This document shows positions 18,201-26,274 of a stretch of DNA of 64,000 bases, one piece after another. The DNA is from Streptococcus sanguinis. Lineage in GTDB: Bacteria; Bacillota; Bacilli; Lactobacillales; Streptococcaceae. The stretch is from positions 2,244,611 through 2,308,610 of the forward strand of contig NZ_CDMW01000001.1 of NCBI RefSeq assembly GCF_001078705.1, given 5' to 3'. A program made the position numbers and the translations under genes. Below the pieces are notes generated by a model. The model had not been told where the DNA came from and did no database searches. It saw only the letters and a list, made by a program, of their open reading frames with translations. Positions within the stretch are counted from its first letter, which is position 1. The number at the start of each line of letters is the position of its first letter.

Positions 18201-19460
18201 TTATCGTCCACCAAAACCGCCTTGGCCGCCCGGGGCACCGCCGCCACCAGGGCCACCAGCGCCGGGTCCGTCTGCTGTGATTTCTGTTCGGCTTTCACCA
18301 TTGACCGTGATGGTACCGCCAGTGTAGGTAGCCGTTCCGTCAAAGTCAAAGGCAGATACCGTAGAAGTAATATCCAAGTTTCCTCCTGACATGATGACAT
18401 CGCCGTTGGAGTCAATAGCGTCGGTATCGCCTTCACCGACCTCAACCTTGATATCGCCACCGGTAATCTTGATAAAGATATCAGCTCCAGTTACGTCACT
18501 AGCTGCATTGATACCATCATCTGTCGCATAAAGGTCCAGCTTGCCTCCGTTAATGGTGACATTAGTCCCCTCCAGAGCTTCTACACTCTTAGAAACCGTA
18601 ATTGTTCCACCATCAATCAAAGCGATATTGCTAGCGTGCAGACCATCATCACCAGCATTAATCGTGATGGTACCGGACTGGATATAGAGATTCCCCAGAG
18701 AAGTATCTTCATCATTGTCCGCGTGGATAGCATCTTCTGTCGCTGTGATATCGATAGTTGCGTCCTTGATATTAATGGCTGAAGCTGCTGACAGACCATG
18801 CTTAGCTGCTTTGAGCGTATAAGTGCCACCTGTTACCCGCAAGGTCTGCTCAGACTTAATCGCTGTTTCATACTTGCCGTCAACTGTCAGACTGCCAGAG
18901 CCGTTGAGAGTCAGGTCAGAGTTACTATAGATAGCTGCATCTGCATCTTTATTGCTGTGATTTGATGAGTCTGAGATTGTGTTTTGGCTGCCGTCAGCCA
19001 GAGTTAGGCTTGTTTTACCCGCATTTTCTACCAGAATAGCTGCGTCTGTCCCGCTCATGGTTACGCCATTTAGGACGATTTGAACCTTGTCGCTATCACC
19101 TGCTTTGACAACAATCTGCACATTTTCACTCGTTCCGGAAACGACATAAGTCCCAGCCTCTGAGATTGTCACGGTAGAACCGGAGACACTAGCGCCATCA
19201 CCAGAGGTCTTAGCACTAGAGCCGCTCAAGCTGATAGTCGTCGCCTTGGACTCATCATAAGAAGCGTCCGAATCCTCTGAGGCAAAGTAATCAGAAGTAT
19301 TGGTCTTGGTCTGACTGGTGCTTGTAGCATTAGCAGCCTGGGTGCTGCTTGAAGCTGTAGAGCTGCTGGCGTTTGAGCTGCATGCTCCTAGCACTGCTGT
19401 CATCAAGATCAGTGGAATCATCAATTTAATTTTTTTAAGGGTTGATTTTGATTGTTTCAT
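18201..19460 (-). CDS. Lipoprotein with carbohydrate-binding beta-solenoid domain (Cthe_2159-like)
   Basis: 419 aa from ATG 19460 (MKQSKSTLKKIKLM), chosen over a longer frame that overlaps the upstream gene because AGATAGGAAAAG lies just before it. The signal peptide ends with lipobox VLGAC. A Ser/Thr-rich linker follows, then a long repeat region with units such as ATEDAIHADND, AGDDGLHASN and ATDDGINAASD. These are the hallmark of the Cthe_2159 calcium-dependent pectin-binding family. The tail is Gly/Pro-rich. It is likely surface-attached and binds a polysaccharide. It starts 19 bases after the VTC-like gene, so the two form an operon. Confidence 0.85.
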   Translation of the reverse strand: MKQSKSTLKKIKLMIPLILMTAVLGACSSNASSSTASSSTQAANATSTSQTKTNTSDYFASEDSDASYDESKATTISLSGSSAKTSGDGASVSGSTVTISEAGTYVVSGTSENVQIVVKAGDSDKVQIVLNGVTMSGTDAAILVENAGKTSLTLADGSQNTISDSSNHSNKDADAAIYSNSDLTLNGSGSLTVDGKYETAIKSEQTLRVTGGTYTLKAAKHGLSAASAINIKDATIDITATEDAIHADNDEDTSLGNLYIQSGTITINAGDDGLHASNIALIDGGTITVSKSVEALEGTNVTINGGKLDLYATDDGINAASDVTGADIFIKITGGDIKVEVGEGDTDAIDSNGDVIMSGGNLDITSTVSAFDFDGTATYTGGTITVNGESRTEITADGPGAGGPGGGGAPGGQGGFGGR

Positions 19461-19479
19461 TTTTCTTTTCCTATCTTTT

Positions 19480-20193
19480 TTATTTACTGCTGATACAGTT
19501 TGCCTTTTTATAGGCAAAGCCATATTTGGAGAAAGAGCATGGAGACAGCTGGTAGCGATCCATGATTTCACTCAGCCATAGCGGACAAGCTTCTGGAATC
19601 TTAACTTCCATAATCACGTGGTTGGCTGGCAGGAGATGATCTCCATGACGACCGGCCAATAGACTCAGATCATAAGGACGGTAGGTCAGGTCGTGATCAA
19701 AGGTAATCCGAATCCGCTCATCCTCAATCCCTTTCATCGAATAACGATTGTAGCCGATATACATCATAGGCTGAATATTGCCAAAATGCTGGGTCAGCCA
19801 GACCATTTCCTTATCTATCTGAAGGTCAGTCAGCTGACTGTAATCACCGTCCAGATAGGCTTCCGCTGCCAGCAAATCTGCTGCAAGACGGCGTTTGGTG
19901 ACCAGATTCTCAGTCTTTTTCTTGATTTCCAAAAAGACTTGACTATCCTCAGTCGGATGCTCTTGATAAGTTCGCAAACGCACCTTCTCATCAAAGTGAG
20001 GATTTTCCAAGGACTCACGAATGAGCTGATAAGATGGCGTATCATAGTAGAGATTGTTAATGGTCGAATAAGCTCGCTCATCCTCCACCAGATAGCCTTC
20101 AAACTCTAGCAATAGATCCAATAAGGTTTCCTTGGAAATGATGTATTTGGTTTCAAAGCGCTGAAAATGATGTTGAAAAAATTTTTCTGCCAT
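19480..20193 (-). CDS. Polyphosphate polymerase (VTC) domain protein
   Basis: 237 aa. This is a VTC/CYTH-like tunnel-fold domain: RFETKYIISKE at the N-terminus, then RLRTYQE, FLEIKKKTENLVTKRR, YNRYSMKG, RITFDHDLTYR and the C-terminal VIMEVKIP, which carry the basic and acidic residues lining a triphosphate tunnel. In eukaryotes VTC4 makes polyphosphate from ATP. Bacterial copies usually sit with a DUF4956 membrane protein and a CotH or Cthe_2159 partner. Here only the Cthe_2159-like partner is present. The protein has no membrane segment. GAGGGGAGAAG precedes the ATG. Confidence 0.85.
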   Translation of the reverse strand: MAEKFFQHHFQRFETKYIISKETLLDLLLEFEGYLVEDERAYSTINNLYYDTPSYQLIRESLENPHFDEKVRLRTYQEHPTEDSQVFLEIKKKTENLVTKRRLAADLLAAEAYLDGDYSQLTDLQIDKEMVWLTQHFGNIQPMMYIGYNRYSMKGIEDERIRITFDHDLTYRPYDLSLLAGRHGDHLLPANHVIMEVKIPEACPLWLSEIMDRYQLSPCSFSKYGFAYKKANCISSK

Positions 20194-21353: not shown

Positions 21354-21884
21354 ATGTTAGAAAGCAATAAACGCCGAAAAACCAAGGCTATTATTGAGAG
21401 AGCCATGGTTACACTACTGCATCAGCAGTCCTTCGACCATATCACTACTGTCCAGCTAGCTCAAGCTGCTGGCATCAGCCGTAGTAGTTTCTATACTCAC
21501 TACAAGGACAAGTACGATATGATTGAACGTTATCAGCAAAACCTCTTTCATCAACTGGGGTATATTTTTGATAACAATCAGGAGGATATTCAAATTGCGA
21601 TTACGGAGGTCTTTCAGTTCCTCCAGCTAGAGCCGCTTTTAGCTGCTCTTCTGACGGAAAACGGAACGAAAGAAATTCAAAATTTCCTGCGCCATAAGCT
21701 GCAGGTGATGCTGGCGGATAGTCTGCAGGATCGTTTTAGTAGACGTGTTTACAATCATTTTGAAAAAGAATACAGCCGGGTCTTTCTCGCTAATGCCTTC
21801 TTCGGCGTCTGCCAGATGTGGGTTTCCAGAGGAAAAAAAGAAAGTCCTGAACAAATAGCAGAATTTCTTTTAAAAATGATATAA
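21354..21884 (+). CDS. TetR/AcrR-family regulator
   Basis: 176 aa. The helix-turn-helix at residues ~26-50 is ITTVQLAQAAGISRSSFYTHYKDK. The C-terminal ligand domain is of the streptococcal TetR_C_33/YxaF-like short type. AAAGGGAG lies before the ATG. In related streptococci such regulators sit next to a yhgE/pip efflux-like gene that they control. Here only the tail of that gene survives 0.8 kb away, so this regulator may have lost its local target. The 230-bp gap upstream holds a TATAAT near 21261. Confidence 0.85.
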   Translation: MLESNKRRKTKAIIERAMVTLLHQQSFDHITTVQLAQAAGISRSSFYTHYKDKYDMIERYQQNLFHQLGYIFDNNQEDIQIAITEVFQFLQLEPLLAALLTENGTKEIQNFLRHKLQVMLADSLQDRFSRRVYNHFEKEYSRVFLANAFFGVCQMWVSRGKKESPEQIAEFLLKMI

Positions 21885-21935: not shown

Positions 21936-21981
21936 AAACAGGGTGTACGAAACCAAAAGAGGTTCTGTACACCCTGTTTTT
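21936..21981. terminator. Bidirectional terminator
   Basis: AAACAGGGTGTAC ... GTACACCCTGTTTTT, a 13-bp stem with an 18-base loop between the TetR gene and the convergent KAS III-like gene. Confidence 0.88.
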
Positions 21982-21982
21982 A

Positions 21983-22927
21983 TTATAATTTCATAGCCAA
22001 CATATTGACTGTCATACCAGCTGCTGTTCCCATCAGAGCGATGGTGTCTCCTTCCTTTACTAGATTGCGCTCCAGAGCATAGCAGAGAGAAAAAGGCACT
22101 GCCACTGACACCATATTACCATAGTCTTGCACGAGATTGAGGTATTTATCATCAGGAATACCCAAGCTGCGCATGACCATTGGCAGAGCACGACTCGCCT
22201 GATGCGGAATGATATAATCCAGGTCAGATAGGCTGAGACCACTCTTTTCTTTAAATTCTTTAAACATTTCCGGAATTTTTCTGGCAGAAAGCAAGAGAAT
22301 CTTCTTGCCATTCATGTCAAACATGTAGTGAGTCTTGGTAGCATCCGAATACTCCTTAGGCTGAAAAGATGTCAGACCACCGCGAATCTCTGTATCGTGA
22401 GCTCCTTCAGACCAGGTCCGCTGCAGGCTGGAGATAACCCCTCTCTCTTCCTCTGTTGCTTCAAAAATCAAAGCAGCCGCTCCATCACTGAACAACTCAA
22501 AACTTTCCTTCTGATTAGGATTGAGGCCCAGGCTTCCAACCTCACTGGACACGATGAGGATCCTTTGATACTCACCAGCCTCCAACAAATGAGACATGAG
22601 ACTCAAAGCAGAGATAAAGCTGGTGCAGGTCGTATTGATATCCATGGCTGGAATGGACAAGCCCTTGGCCACCAACTCATGAATCAGGGCCGCTGTGCAA
22701 GGAATAGGCTGAACGCCCACTGCACTGGCCGATACGATGCAGTCAACATCTTTGATAGTCAAGCCCGCTTGCTGCAGGGCTTTTTCAATCGCCTTAACAG
22801 CCATAGAAAGCTGGGTTTCTTCATTTTCCACCACTCGATAACGGGTCTGATCCTTAAAAGTCACAGTATTTCTAGGTAGATGCGTACCGTAACCAACAAT
22901 CTTTATATGATTCTTTACTGCTGTCAT
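21983..22927 (-). CDS. 3-oxoacyl-ACP synthase III-like (KAS III/OleA-type) condensing enzyme
   Basis: 314 aa thiolase-fold condensing enzyme. The catalytic triad is complete: Cys101 in NTTCTSF, His242 in YIIPHQASR and Asn271 in YGNMVS. It is not the housekeeping FabH, which in streptococci lies in the fab cluster; its active-site context differs and it is the last gene of a four-gene operon with an adenylate-forming enzyme, an MBL-fold hydrolase and an NAD-dependent epimerase. That set recalls OleA-type or beta-ketoacyl secondary pathways. It probably condenses an acyl-thioester with a malonyl or acyl partner. GAAGGAG precedes the ATG. Confidence 0.87.
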   Translation of the reverse strand: MTAVKNHIKIVGYGTHLPRNTVTFKDQTRYRVVENEETQLSMAVKAIEKALQQAGLTIKDVDCIVSASAVGVQPIPCTAALIHELVAKGLSIPAMDINTTCTSFISALSLMSHLLEAGEYQRILIVSSEVGSLGLNPNQKESFELFSDGAAALIFEATEEERGVISSLQRTWSEGAHDTEIRGGLTSFQPKEYSDATKTHYMFDMNGKKILLLSARKIPEMFKEFKEKSGLSLSDLDYIIPHQASRALPMVMRSLGIPDDKYLNLVQDYGNMVSVAVPFSLCYALERNLVKEGDTIALMGTAAGMTVNMLAMKL

Positions 22928-23027
22928 ATTAAACTCCTTCTTGTCAGACTTGGGGCTTCTCGGCAGCTAGGTAAACTGCCAAAGCACTTCAGCCTCTGAT
23001 TCATATATTTTTCCACTTGGGGCATTC

Positions 23028-24287
23028 TTAAGCCCGATAGATGCGTTTCAACTTACGGCTTCTGTCCCGCTGATAATCTTCAAAAGAAATAGCCGGCATA
23101 AGAAATCTTTTATCAGTCGCTAAGTTTTGAAACTGCTGGACAATCTCGTCTTCTCGCTGCTGACTACGATGTTCGATAGCAATGGTCAGCGAATGGTCCT
23201 GCTTCTGAGCTACCTGGTATTCTCCAATCCCATCAACTAAGAGCAGGCAGCGGCGGATAAAGTCTGGAAAGATCTCCACCGACTGACCTGCGGCATTTTC
23301 AAAAATGAAAATATCATCCGAGCGCCCCTCGATTCTGTCAATCCGTGTAAAGACCGAACCGCAGGGGCAAGGTTCAGGATTTTCCACCAAGATATCATTC
23401 AGCTCATATTGAAAAATTGGCTGAGAAGTCCGCTTGAAATCCGTAATTATTGGATAAAATCGCCTATCATCCAAGTAGCGTTTATCTATATGGACAATGT
23501 CTTCGTTTAGATGAAGATTCCCGTAAGCACAACTGCAAGCTAGAAAGCCCTCAGTCGCTTGGTAGACCTGATCCACCATTTTCAGACCAAATCCTGCTTG
23601 AATCCTCTGCCGATCCGGCTCTTCTAAAATCTCTGCCACCGATACGACTTTGCTAGGGGCAATTTTCAAATTTCCTGCCTGGACTTGTTTAGCCAGATCC
23701 AAGAGCATTGACGCTGGAGCCACCAAAATCGTCGGCTGGTAAGCATTCAAGCGCTCTACATGTTCTTCAGCCCTCTGAAAAGTATCAAAATACTCCAAAG
23801 AAATCAATCCTGAATTGACAGTCTGATAGAGCTGGTTATCTGCCCGAAGAAAGAAGGCTATTTTGTGCCCAAAGAGTTTGCCTGTAGGCAGCATCTTGGC
23901 CAAGATGGCTGCCGCCCACATACTGCGCTCCTTTTCAGTGGTGACAAACAAGCCTCGGTGACCAGATGTCCCTGAAGACAGGCCGACAGCAATTTCTCCT
24001 ATCATGGGACTGAAATCACGTGTCCGCTCGCTCTCAAGTGCCAAGGCTAACAACTCATCTCGATCCAGCCCCTGAGTATTGAGCTCATTGAAATGCTCCA
24101 TCATAAAGGCCTTATTCATCTTAAAATCTACTGGAATACCTGATTTGAAATAAGGTGATTCCTGCTGCAGAAATTCCCGATAGGTCTCTAAAGCCTTGAC
24201 TTGATAGCTTTCCAGGGCCTGTCGATCTTTAAATCGATGCCCCCAGCGCATGACGCTAAAGGTTTTTAGAAATGTTCCTAGTTTCAT
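23028..24287 (-). CDS. Adenylate-forming enzyme related to coenzyme F390 synthetase/PaaK
   Basis: 419 aa from ATG 24287 (MKLGTFLKTFSVMRWG), chosen because CGGAGC lies upstream and family members start here. The nucleotide loop is VGLSSGTSGHRGLF, the VYQATEGFLACSC motif follows, and a CPCGS cysteine pair sits near FTRIDRIEGRSDD, which matches the A8-type YxxTE/GRxDD pattern. The C-terminal lid ends RSRKLKRIYR. Such enzymes activate a carboxylic acid as acyl-adenylate. It overlaps the end of the MBL gene by 32 bases. The acyl acceptor is unknown, and no dedicated carrier protein is seen nearby. Confidence 0.85.
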   Translation of the reverse strand: MKLGTFLKTFSVMRWGHRFKDRQALESYQVKALETYREFLQQESPYFKSGIPVDFKMNKAFMMEHFNELNTQGLDRDELLALALESERTRDFSPMIGEIAVGLSSGTSGHRGLFVTTEKERSMWAAAILAKMLPTGKLFGHKIAFFLRADNQLYQTVNSGLISLEYFDTFQRAEEHVERLNAYQPTILVAPASMLLDLAKQVQAGNLKIAPSKVVSVAEILEEPDRQRIQAGFGLKMVDQVYQATEGFLACSCAYGNLHLNEDIVHIDKRYLDDRRFYPIITDFKRTSQPIFQYELNDILVENPEPCPCGSVFTRIDRIEGRSDDIFIFENAAGQSVEIFPDFIRRCLLLVDGIGEYQVAQKQDHSLTIAIEHRSQQREDEIVQQFQNLATDKRFLMPAISFEDYQRDRSRKLKRIYRA

Positions 24288-25083
24288 ACAAAATCTGCTC
24301 CGCTCTCTCAGCCGGATCATGACTGACTAGCACCTGATAACCGACAGCAAGTAACTGTCGAAGCAAGGCCACACCAGCCATGTATTCTTCCTTGTTATCC
24401 TGCATTAGTGACGGCAAGAAACGCATCTGCTCCGTATAAGGCAACAGATCCACGCCCCAGCACAAATCAGCTCCGATAAACAGATGATAATCTGGCAAAA
24501 AGAGACAAGCTTGACCAGCGGCATGGCCATCAACTGAGGCCAGATATATACTTCCATCCCCAAACAAGTCAACTGTCTTGCGATAGAGGAATTCTGCTTG
24601 GACCTGCTGAGGTTCCACCACTTCCAACCGACTCTCAAAATCCTGCGGAAGAAATTCCTTGAAAATCAAATCCTTAAGCTTGGCATGCTGATAAGTTTTA
24701 AAAACGGTCTTGGTCAGAATGAAGCGGGCCTTGGAAAAGAAAGCAGATCCGCCGATGTGATCTGGATGCAAGTGCGACAAGATGACATAAGAAATCTCTT
24801 CTAGCGCAATTCCTTTTTTCTCAAGCAGCCGATCTACACGCTCCTCTTCTGACATATCTACAGGCGTTCCCAGACCATAGAGCCAGTATTTGAGCTTGGG
24901 CTTCAGAATAGCTGGAGAATAGCCAGTGTCGTAGAGAATATAGCCTTTCTCACGATGCTTCAAGAGGAAAACACCAGCTGGAAAAATCATTTTTTTCTTG
25001 GTAACTCCCTTAAACATCTGCTGCAAGTGACTGCTACAGCGCCCAGGCTGAAGATACTCAATTTTCTCGATAATGTTGGACAT
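24256..25083 (-). CDS. Metallo-beta-lactamase-fold hydrolase
   Basis: 275 aa from ATG 25083 (MSNIIEKIEY), preferred to an in-frame GTG 18 bases upstream. The zinc-binding motif HLHPDH gives H104, H106, D108, H109. Further ligands are probable in DGHAAGQACLF and the C-terminal VLVSHDPAE. YDTGY near 51-55 is the N-terminal part of the site. This pattern matches AHL-lactonase-like and other N-acyl/thioester hydrolases. In the operon it may act as a thioesterase or lactonase on the pathway product. It overlaps both neighbours, indicating translational coupling. Confidence 0.86.
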   Translation of the reverse strand: MSNIIEKIEYLQPGRCSSHLQQMFKGVTKKKMIFPAGVFLLKHREKGYILYDTGYSPAILKPKLKYWLYGLGTPVDMSEEERVDRLLEKKGIALEEISYVILSHLHPDHIGGSAFFSKARFILTKTVFKTYQHAKLKDLIFKEFLPQDFESRLEVVEPQQVQAEFLYRKTVDLFGDGSIYLASVDGHAAGQACLFLPDYHLFIGADLCWGVDLLPYTEQMRFLPSLMQDNKEEYMAGVALLRQLLAVGYQVLVSHDPAERAEQILYETRNISKNL

Positions 25084-26035
25084 ATTTTGCAATCCCTTCA
25101 CTGATTGTCAACTTGGGTTGATAGCCCAAATCCCTTACTGCTGCTGATATATCCAGCGTTTGACTGTAACGCATTAAGTAATAAGTGTAAAGAGTCAGAG
25201 GAGGCTCTTTTTCAATGTTAAAAAAGCGATAAAAGCTTTCAAACCCCTGTGCCAGAAGACCTAGAAAAGCAGCAGGCAACTTAATATAACGTTTACGAAC
25301 CTGTAAACCTTCCAAAGCTTCATCCAGCATATCCTTGAAACTACGGGATTCTCCGTTGGTAATGTTGTAAACCTGTCCTTGCGCTTCTGGAATTTCCAAA
25401 GCCAGTCGAACAGCCAAGGCCACATTTTCCACACAGGTCATGTCCATCATTTGCTGGCCATTTCTGATAAGTGGAATCGCCAGTTTTTGACTTAAGCGCA
25501 GAATCCTAGGAAAGATACTGGTATCTCCAATACCAAAAAGCCCTCTAGGACGCAAGATAACAGATGGAACTTGAGGATAGCTTCGGACAATCCGCTCAGC
25601 CATGAGCTTGCTTTTGATATAGAAATTCAGCTCATTCTCCTGAGGAGCAGCCTCTTCTTTGATAGCAAGTTGGTCACGCGCGGCAGCATAAACACTCGGA
25701 GAGGAAATATAGACCAGTCGTTGCACTCCAAAATGTCGGCAGGCTTCCATAACCAACTTGGTTCCTACTACATTGGTCTGATAAAACTGCTCCCATGGTC
25801 CCCAAATCGTTGAGAGAGCACCAGCGTGCACCACTGCATCCACTCCTTCGCAGGCTGCAAAAATTTCTTCTTCTCTGGTAAAATCTCCAGCAAAAAACTC
25901 TACTAAAGGACCTTCTAACTGCCGACCAGCCTTCAGATTACGACCAAAAGCCCGCACCTGATAGCCTTGTTCAGCCAGCTCTTCAACAACATACCTTCCT
26001 AGAAAGCCAGTCGCTCCTGTCACTAGAACCTTCAT
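25058..26035 (-). CDS. NAD-dependent epimerase/3-beta-hydroxysteroid dehydrogenase-like reductase (OleD-like)
   Basis: 325 aa from ATG 26035, with GAAAGGAGTAGC upstream. The Rossmann loop TGATGFLG occupies residues 6-13. The catalytic pair YIKSK (YxxxK) follows the Ser in VYISSPSVY. The extended SDR fold with LRPRGLFG and a C-terminal hydrophobic helix is typical of the 3-beta-HSD/OleD branch, which reduces beta-keto acids or similar. It is first of the four-gene operon. The upstream region contains GTGTATAAT but no clear -35. The substrate is unknown. Confidence 0.86.
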   Translation of the reverse strand: MKVLVTGATGFLGRYVVEELAEQGYQVRAFGRNLKAGRQLEGPLVEFFAGDFTREEEIFAACEGVDAVVHAGALSTIWGPWEQFYQTNVVGTKLVMEACRHFGVQRLVYISSPSVYAAARDQLAIKEEAAPQENELNFYIKSKLMAERIVRSYPQVPSVILRPRGLFGIGDTSIFPRILRLSQKLAIPLIRNGQQMMDMTCVENVALAVRLALEIPEAQGQVYNITNGESRSFKDMLDEALEGLQVRKRYIKLPAAFLGLLAQGFESFYRFFNIEKEPPLTLYTYYLMRYSQTLDISAAVRDLGYQPKLTISEGIAKYVQHYREN

Positions 26036-26246
26036 CGCTACTCCTTTCATATAATTTTCTGTTTGTGTCTTATCCTCATTATACACCATTTCAGCAAATC
26101 TTCCGTAAAAAAGCTGGAAAAAATCTTTACAAAGTGTCTCACCTGATTAGATAGGAGCAGAAAGAAATCAACTAATTTCTGAAAAACAGCTGCCTCTTTT
26201 TGACCTATTCTTAGTTAGAATCAGCTTTATTAGTTCATTGATAGTA

Positions 26247-26274
26247 TAAAAAAGAAGCCGGAAAACCGACTTCT
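26247..26274 (-). terminator. rpsD terminator
   Basis: Minus strand AGAAGTCGG-TTTT-CCGGCTTCT followed by TTTTTT. Confidence 0.88.

Follow-up and report, generated by a model that had tools for sequence, protein, structure and literature searches.

A conserved four-gene operon in Streptococcus sanguinis and its proposed role in glycolipid assembly

Four genes that form a conserved unit

The DNA analysed here, referred to as the window, is a 64,000-nt stretch of Streptococcus sanguinis (assembly GCF_001078705.1, contig NZ_CDMW01000001.1, positions 2,244,611 to 2,308,610) that forms the end of a 2.31-Mb genome. It carries a cassette of four genes, encoding a short-chain dehydrogenase/reductase (SDR), a metallo-beta-lactamase (MBL)-fold hydrolase, an adenylate-forming enzyme and a beta-ketoacyl-acyl carrier protein synthase III (KAS III), which are listed below in order of transcription.

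25058..26035, minus strand: extended SDR reductase, 3-beta-hydroxysteroid dehydrogenase (3-beta-HSD)/OleD-like, 325 aa (open reading frame (ORF) list and sequence reading)
24256..25083, minus strand: MBL-fold dizinc hydrolase, N-acyl-homoserine lactone (AHL) lactonase-like, 275 aa (ORF list and sequence reading)
23028..24287, minus strand: adenylate-forming enzyme of the F390-synthetase-related family TIGR02304, 419 aa (ORF list and sequence reading)
21983..22927, minus strand: stand-alone KAS III, 314 aa, with Cys101-His242-Asn271 and a deletion of the loop that bears the coenzyme A (CoA)-stacking Trp in FabH (alignment)

The ORF coordinates confirm the proposal of an earlier note, made from the sequence alone, that the four genes of 21983..26035 are a single minus-strand operon. 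They were described there as overlapping or nearly touching, which holds for three of them, since the SDR and MBL genes share 26 nt and the MBL and adenylating-enzyme genes 32 nt, whereas the KAS III gene lies beyond a 100-nt gap. The ORF list of the block contains no carrier-protein or transporter gene, in agreement with the same note.

Of the genomes sampled, 60 of 245 in the window's family, 28 of 295 across the order and 9 of 398 across the phylum have an adenylating enzyme that scores above the TIGR02304 cut-off. A cassette-type KAS III (at least 409 bits) is intact in 59 of the 60 family genomes and broken in the remaining one (G164). It was seen at that score in none of the other genomes of the family, where the next group, FabH, reaches 361 bits; the KAS III matches considered in the family extended to below cassette-type scores, and a broken KAS III without an adenylating enzyme could escape notice. 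At the G164 locus (L027) the KAS III gene matches in two pieces and the other three cassette genes are whole. The order SDR-MBL-adenylating enzyme-KAS III was found in all 30 streptococcal loci, which are the best 30 of the 60, belong to the genus of the window by database labels and include both the window's own locus and L027 with its broken KAS III.

The cassette extends well beyond the streptococci. Among named genomes, the best 80 of 521 loci were taken from an alignment led by an Escherichia coli protein and are hence proteobacterial, by their titles mostly Enterobacterales, Pseudomonas and Burkholderiales. In 77 of these 80 the four genes share a strand and span no more than 7 kb, the exceptions being L169 (5.8 kb only) and L145 and L154 (no KAS III match); an MBL gene was found in 79 of the 80 and in 30/30 streptococcal loci. 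The same compact arrangement was found in 18 of 22 further loci, which include one of the window's genus (L095) and one of its family (L096); L080 is more dispersed, and in L079, L093 and L094 only the adenylating enzyme is present. In E. coli the cassette forms part of a seven-gene version (KAS III, SDR, MBL, adenylating enzyme, PAP2, a sterol-desaturase-family protein and an acyl-CoA desaturase), which has matches in 672 of 5426 complete genomes (with 80% or more of its length covered in 671) and sits between narI and purU in one record. A phage collection gave two weak matches and a plasmid collection 91 records with a match, 32 of which cover at least 80% of the query. Two records labelled as plasmids look chromosomal, namely L075 (NZ_CP141085.1), with narGHJI, purU, galU and hns, and the 2.1-Mb Fusobacterium record L076 (NZ_CP084075.1).

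Two architectures account for most of the 135 loci compared. In 56, the order SDR-MBL-adenylating enzyme-KAS III goes with a KAS III loop of 6 residues (L088 has the same order and a loop of 8), and in 77 the order KAS III-SDR-MBL-adenylating enzyme goes with a loop of 24 residues; L087 has the long loop and a gene order that differs from both. For the 80 of 108 loci where a simple ORF caller recovered all four genes, the pairwise distances of each protein track those of the other three (r 0.94-0.97); joint inheritance would give such values, and shared ancestry alone also raises them. A chance neighbourhood was rejected on the counts of co-occurrence and synteny: the genes are not separate in most relatives (59/60, 30/30, 77/80), and it was separate genes that the earlier note had named as a refutation of its proposal. 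The four genes thus form a true conserved unit; Fusobacterium, E. coli and numerous other bacteria also have it, usually complete.

Glycosyltransferases and other tailoring modules

The pathway extends beyond the operon to glycosyltransferase genes that co-occur with it. An MGT-type glycosyltransferase (E 1e-40) was found in 58 of the 60 cassette genomes of the family and in 3 of the 185 others (Fisher p 6e-50, a descriptive value since the genomes are related). Its gene lies within 6 kb of the cassette in 45 of the 58, although the copy in G162 is only 31% identical to the query. Many streptococcal matches (e.g. G113, G223 and G082) were flagged with one internal TGA, possibly upstream of the true start. 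Twelve of the 13 genomes without a nearby MGT gene, the window's included, carry the HpnI-like glycosyltransferase gene of a separate module, described below as module B; G242 does not.

Clustering of the neighbours of 108 loci gave three kinds of tailoring module. Module A consists of a PAP2 phosphatase, a fatty-acid hydroxylase and a fatty-acid desaturase, all three of which are present in 57 of the 80 named loci. Module B consists of a second SDR, a GT21/HpnI-like glycosyltransferase, a small protein with a Ser-Asp-His motif and an MGT-type glycosyltransferase. It is contiguous with the cassette in three loci from other families of the same order (L083-L085), lies beside it in eight Enterobacterales loci (L105, L106, L107, L112, L113, L123, L127 and L168; the small protein was not found in L123) and lacks the MGT gene in the Fusobacterium locus L076. 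Module C is a PRK06849-type ATP-grasp protein, seen in Bacillales and others and matched by 10 of the 22 further loci and by one of the 80 named ones.

The MGT copies of module B share about 41-44% identity with the copies adjoining the operon. The second SDR of L107, the one enterobacterial member scanned, is nearest OleD (114 bits), and the HpnI-like relative in L084 matches Pfam GT21 at 81.5 bits (cut-off 21.7) yet scores 44.9 bits against HpnI, far below the cut-off of 310, which sets it apart from the hopanoid enzyme. Ser123, Asp173 and His192 of the small protein are invariant in 12 rows. Its assignment as an alpha/beta-hydrolase was rejected, as two members gave no Pfam match and no convincing PDB relative was found; "hydrolase-like" is therefore a label by motif only. 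In the window's genome (G000) this module forms a second operon, which probably completes the pathway.

G000:C1:1200844-1204651 (L188:6845-10652), outside the window and about 1.07 Mb from the cassette: SDR, HpnI-like glycosyltransferase, hydrolase-like protein, MGT glycosyltransferase

The four enzymes, their relatives and the borders of the operon

The KAS III alignment comprises 136 rows (43 tblastn matches over 290 residues, 92 ORFs and the window protein), with 133 distinct strings and some genomes present twice; the split KAS III of L027 dropped out. The Cys101-His242-Asn271 triad reported earlier is present in 136/136 rows. At the position of OleA Glu117 there is Ile in 62 rows and Leu in 74, and the Pro that follows is invariant. 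The Asn of the FabH HQAN motif is replaced by Ser in all 136 rows, preceded by Ala or Gly, and the FabH GFGGG motif is replaced by a GTAAG-type one. In FabH, a loop Trp stacks on CoA. The loop is 6 residues long in the streptococcal clade and 24 in the other, and by alignment the residues missing from the short loop are those that bear this Trp.

The earlier note had raised the possibility that the protein is the housekeeping FabH. This was rejected because another gene is FabH: a second KAS III (G000:C1:1782073-1782912), 31% identical to the window protein, has FabH 5bqs as its closest solved structure, and the window protein scores 162.8 bits against the FabH model TIGR00747, far below the cut-off of 292.1. 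Against the PDB, the window KAS III alone gave 147.5 bits for MxnB, 136.3 for CorB, 115.3 for the best FabH, 65.5 for 3h76, an enzyme of the Pseudomonas quinolone signal (PQS), and 62 for OleA. A FabH-free and mostly proteobacterial profile ranked MxnB (261.7), CorB (245.0), the best FabH (217.7) and 3h76 (135.0) in the same order. By these scores, MxnB and CorB are the nearest solved relatives. Two-chain ketosynthases of their kind have a second substrate tunnel.

MxnB and CorB, from the myxopyronin and corallopyronin pathways, join two beta-ketoacyl chains (PMC4901931, PMC5724707, both in excerpt). According to excerpts of PMC4578411, they carry a hydrophobic residue, Val94, where OleA and PpyS have a catalytic Glu, and group inside the FabH clade. 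The cassette KAS III shares with them this hydrophobic position, the Cys-His-Asn triad and, by alignment, a Thr in a GTxxG motif. They differ from it in acting on carrier-protein-bound chains of large polyketide synthase lines to give alpha-pyrones (excerpts of PMC4901931 and PMC5724707), whereas the cassette KAS III is accompanied by an SDR, an MBL protein and an adenylating enzyme, with no polyketide synthase or carrier protein in the block.

The best NCBIfam match of the SDR is the OleD model NF042422, at 208 bits over the full length and below its cut-off of 580; the model matches 19/19 members scanned. The TGATGFLG motif and the Tyr and Lys of YIKSK, both read from the sequence in the earlier note, are in place (Tyr139-x3-Lys143), and the best PDB match is a sterol-4-alpha-carboxylate 3-dehydrogenase (6jkg). 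In the MBL protein, the HLHPDH motif noted before makes up, together with His187, Asp206 and His255, the seven dizinc ligands, which are invariant in 20 rows and are common to the AHL lactonases. Its nearest PDB chains include the lactonases GcL, 4-pyridoxolactonase and AiiA, and none of the 23 PDB matches at E 1e-8 is named as PqsE. The protein scores 71.7 bits against the AHL-lactonase model AttM, short of the cut-off of 390.

The adenylating enzyme had been called F390-synthetase-like, and it passes the TIGR02304 cut-off of 251.9 with 553.1 bits. It had also been seen as a PaaK-like ligase in place of OleC; the PaaK resemblance survives as distant relatives in the PDB, whereas the enzyme itself belongs to TIGR02304. 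There is no Pfam match at E 0.01, and ANL-type motifs are present in 89 to 102 of 104 ORFs. Its eight NCBIfam matches name no OleC model; whether the library contains one was not checked. Cys253, His259, Cys307 and Cys309 (window numbering) are invariant in 24 rows of one alignment and nearly so in another, and from their pattern could bind a metal ion.

The borders of the operon and the adjoining regulator gene are as follows.

21354..21884, plus strand: TetR-type regulator, convergent with the KAS III gene (Pfam TetR_N, TetR_C_8)
21936..21979, no strand assigned: hairpin in the gap where the KAS III and TetR genes converge, probably the terminator that ends the operon (outer stem of 13 bp, -28.6 kcal/mol, z = -7.8)
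26078..26083, minus strand: TATAAT, candidate -10 box 42 nt upstream of the SDR start (by eye)
26253..26274, minus strand: terminator-like hairpin after rpsD, between the operon and the upstream gene (terminator scan)

The 21936..21979 hairpin is taken as no more than a probable terminator, since the terminator scan did not list it. The hairpin at 26253..26274 is no more than suggestive, because the scan gave 4 sites against 5.4 expected in shuffles, and TATAAT (26083-26078) is a weak candidate because the same scan does not list it. The ATG at 26089 in the ORF list is upstream of TATAAT, and the start at 26035 has its own AGGAG by eye. The TetR gene has the same position in G242. Six of 32 short loci gave a TetR match (L003, L013, L021, L023 and, from the window's own genome, L001 and L007); these stretches end shortly past the KAS III gene. 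Elsewhere in the window, 18201-19571 encodes a secreted Ser/Thr-rich repeat protein and adjoins ORF 19480-20193, which we take to resemble a VTC-type domain protein; G242 has similar ORFs close to its cassette (L189).

Proposed pathway and alternative readings

The reading favoured here, with moderate confidence, is that the four genes encode the core of a lipid-assembly pathway for a two-chain or beta-hydroxy lipid, which is glycosylated in streptococci. The product would be an envelope or secreted glycolipid. That it is lipid-like, as the earlier note had supposed, is suggested by the accessory genes, which encode a fatty-acid hydroxylase, a fatty-acid desaturase, PAP2 and a GT21/HpnI-type glycosyltransferase. 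In heterocyte glycolipid and rhamnolipid pathways too, a hydroxy-lipid is made and then glycosylated, a likeness of product type.

We infer the chemical steps from the family and nearest relatives of each enzyme. The adenylating enzyme would activate a fatty or hydroxy acid with ATP. KAS III would load an acyl group on Cys101 and may join it to a second acyl or beta-ketoacyl chain as MxnB and CorB do, which is less sure than the other steps. The SDR, like its OleD and 3-beta-HSD relatives, would turn the beta-keto group into a hydroxyl, and the dizinc MBL enzyme would free the product by hydrolysing a thioester or lactone. In streptococci, the hydroxyl would then be glycosylated by the MGT-type enzyme encoded beside the operon in most cassette genomes, and in the window's genome by the separate operon at G000:C1:1200844-1204651. 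Other bacteria would swap tailoring modules, with PAP2, hydroxylase and desaturase in many Proteobacteria and ATP-grasp in Bacillales and others.

Several observations weigh against this proposal. The two-chain step draws on sequence scores, and when one FabH is included in the KAS III profile, FabH ranks first (315.8 bits) and MxnB third (293.3). A hydrophobic residue at the OleA Glu position is present in the genome's own FabH as well (Met), and as MxnB and CorB (Val) and FabH are alike in this respect, the position does not separate the two. G073 and G192 have MGT and HpnI-like genes without the cassette and G106 has a glycosyltransferase fragment, while G213 and G026 have the cassette without a glycosyltransferase; in G213 (L095), an ATP-grasp protein is encoded upstream of the cassette instead. 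Named loci with all three genes of module A number 57, and in 54 of them the stretch fetched shows no glycosyltransferase; glycosylation is therefore not general. Furthermore, the Mantel and Fisher tests take no account of shared ancestry.

The strongest rival is a decarboxylative elongation, in which KAS III adds two carbons from malonyl-acyl carrier protein, the SDR reduces the product, the MBL protein frees a 3-hydroxy acid as a thioesterase and the adenylating enzyme couples the acid to a hydroxyl or sugar, as in a rhamnolipid-like glycolipid. This is possible though doubtful, and like two-chain assembly it would give a glycolipid in streptococci and fits the linked MGT gene. The intact triad, the lack of an OleA-type Glu and the top rank of FabH once a FabH is in the profile all accord with it, and the carrier protein of fatty acid synthesis would suffice. 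The Ser for the HQAN Asn in 136/136 rows, the GTAAG-type motif for GFGGG and the short loop of the streptococcal clade argue the other way, as do the two-chain enzymes being the nearest solved relatives. The pathway might instead be of the ole type. Head-to-head condensation and reduction would then be followed by closure of a beta-lactone through the adenylating enzyme, with an MBL protein replacing OleB, to give a beta-lactone or olefin. The same kinds of enzyme are present as in OleABCD (a condensing enzyme, an OleD-like SDR, an ANL enzyme and a hydrolase), and the OleD model is the best NCBIfam match of the SDR, so this part of the resemblance seen in the earlier note stands. It does not hold for the condensing enzyme: Glu117-Pro is Ile/Leu-Pro in all rows, MxnB and CorB are nearest, and OleA scores 62 bits against 147 for MxnB. 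The SDR is also far below the OleD cut-off (208 against 580), the adenylating enzyme falls in TIGR02304, and the MBL fold differs from the alpha/beta-hydrolase fold of OleB. KAS III was accordingly rejected as an ole member, and ole-type chemistry is retained as an unlikely alternative. In excerpts of PMC7064751, two OleA proteins are without the Glu117 that otherwise precedes Pro, and one ole-type cluster with a glycosyltransferase is predicted to give a glycosylated beta-lactone.

Adenylation, KAS III condensation and an MBL protein also occur together in PqsA-PqsD-PqsE of the Pseudomonas quinolone signal. On this model the distantly PaaK-like enzyme would activate an aromatic acid, KAS III would condense it and the MBL protein would act as a thioesterase, to give a PQS-like or aryl-ketone signal. 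The identical enzyme classes speak for such a product, which is nevertheless very unlikely: the MBL protein is nearest the AHL lactonases with PqsE unnamed among its matches, 3h76 is far below MxnB and FabH with both the window protein and the profile (65.5 and 135.0 bits), and the accessory genes are those of fatty-acid and glycolipid enzymes. Least credible of all is that the four genes lie together for unrelated reasons, with the MBL protein serving as a lactonase in defence or quorum quenching. The resemblance of this protein to the AHL-lactonase family would fit, whereas its gene is in 79/80 named and 30/30 streptococcal loci, and the four genes are within 7 kb in 77/80.

Two-chain lipid assembly thus remains the preferred reading. 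It can be extended, speculatively and with a rather low likelihood, to a pathway that crosses phyla, in which the adenylating enzyme would pass acyl-AMP directly to a KAS III without the CoA-binding loop of FabH, so joining two chains without a dedicated carrier protein, and reduction, release and modular tailoring would follow. The products might then be two-chain glycolipids in streptococci and their relatives, Fusobacterium and some Enterobacterales, and acyl-tailored relatives of these in other Proteobacteria, including many E. coli.

No paper on the cassette or its product was found among the open-access papers searched, which include neither subscription journals nor preprints. The parts are of known kinds and their combination appears to be new. 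An orphan lipid-type pathway is present in 60 of the 245 family genomes, and a seven-gene version of it in 672 of 5426 complete E. coli genomes. With the glycosyltransferases that co-occur and the second operon split off from the first, what was an orphan operon becomes a hypothesis on eight defined genes. Furthermore, the free-standing KAS III enzymes of the cassette are a group suited to asking how two acyl chains might be linked when the OleA glutamate is missing.

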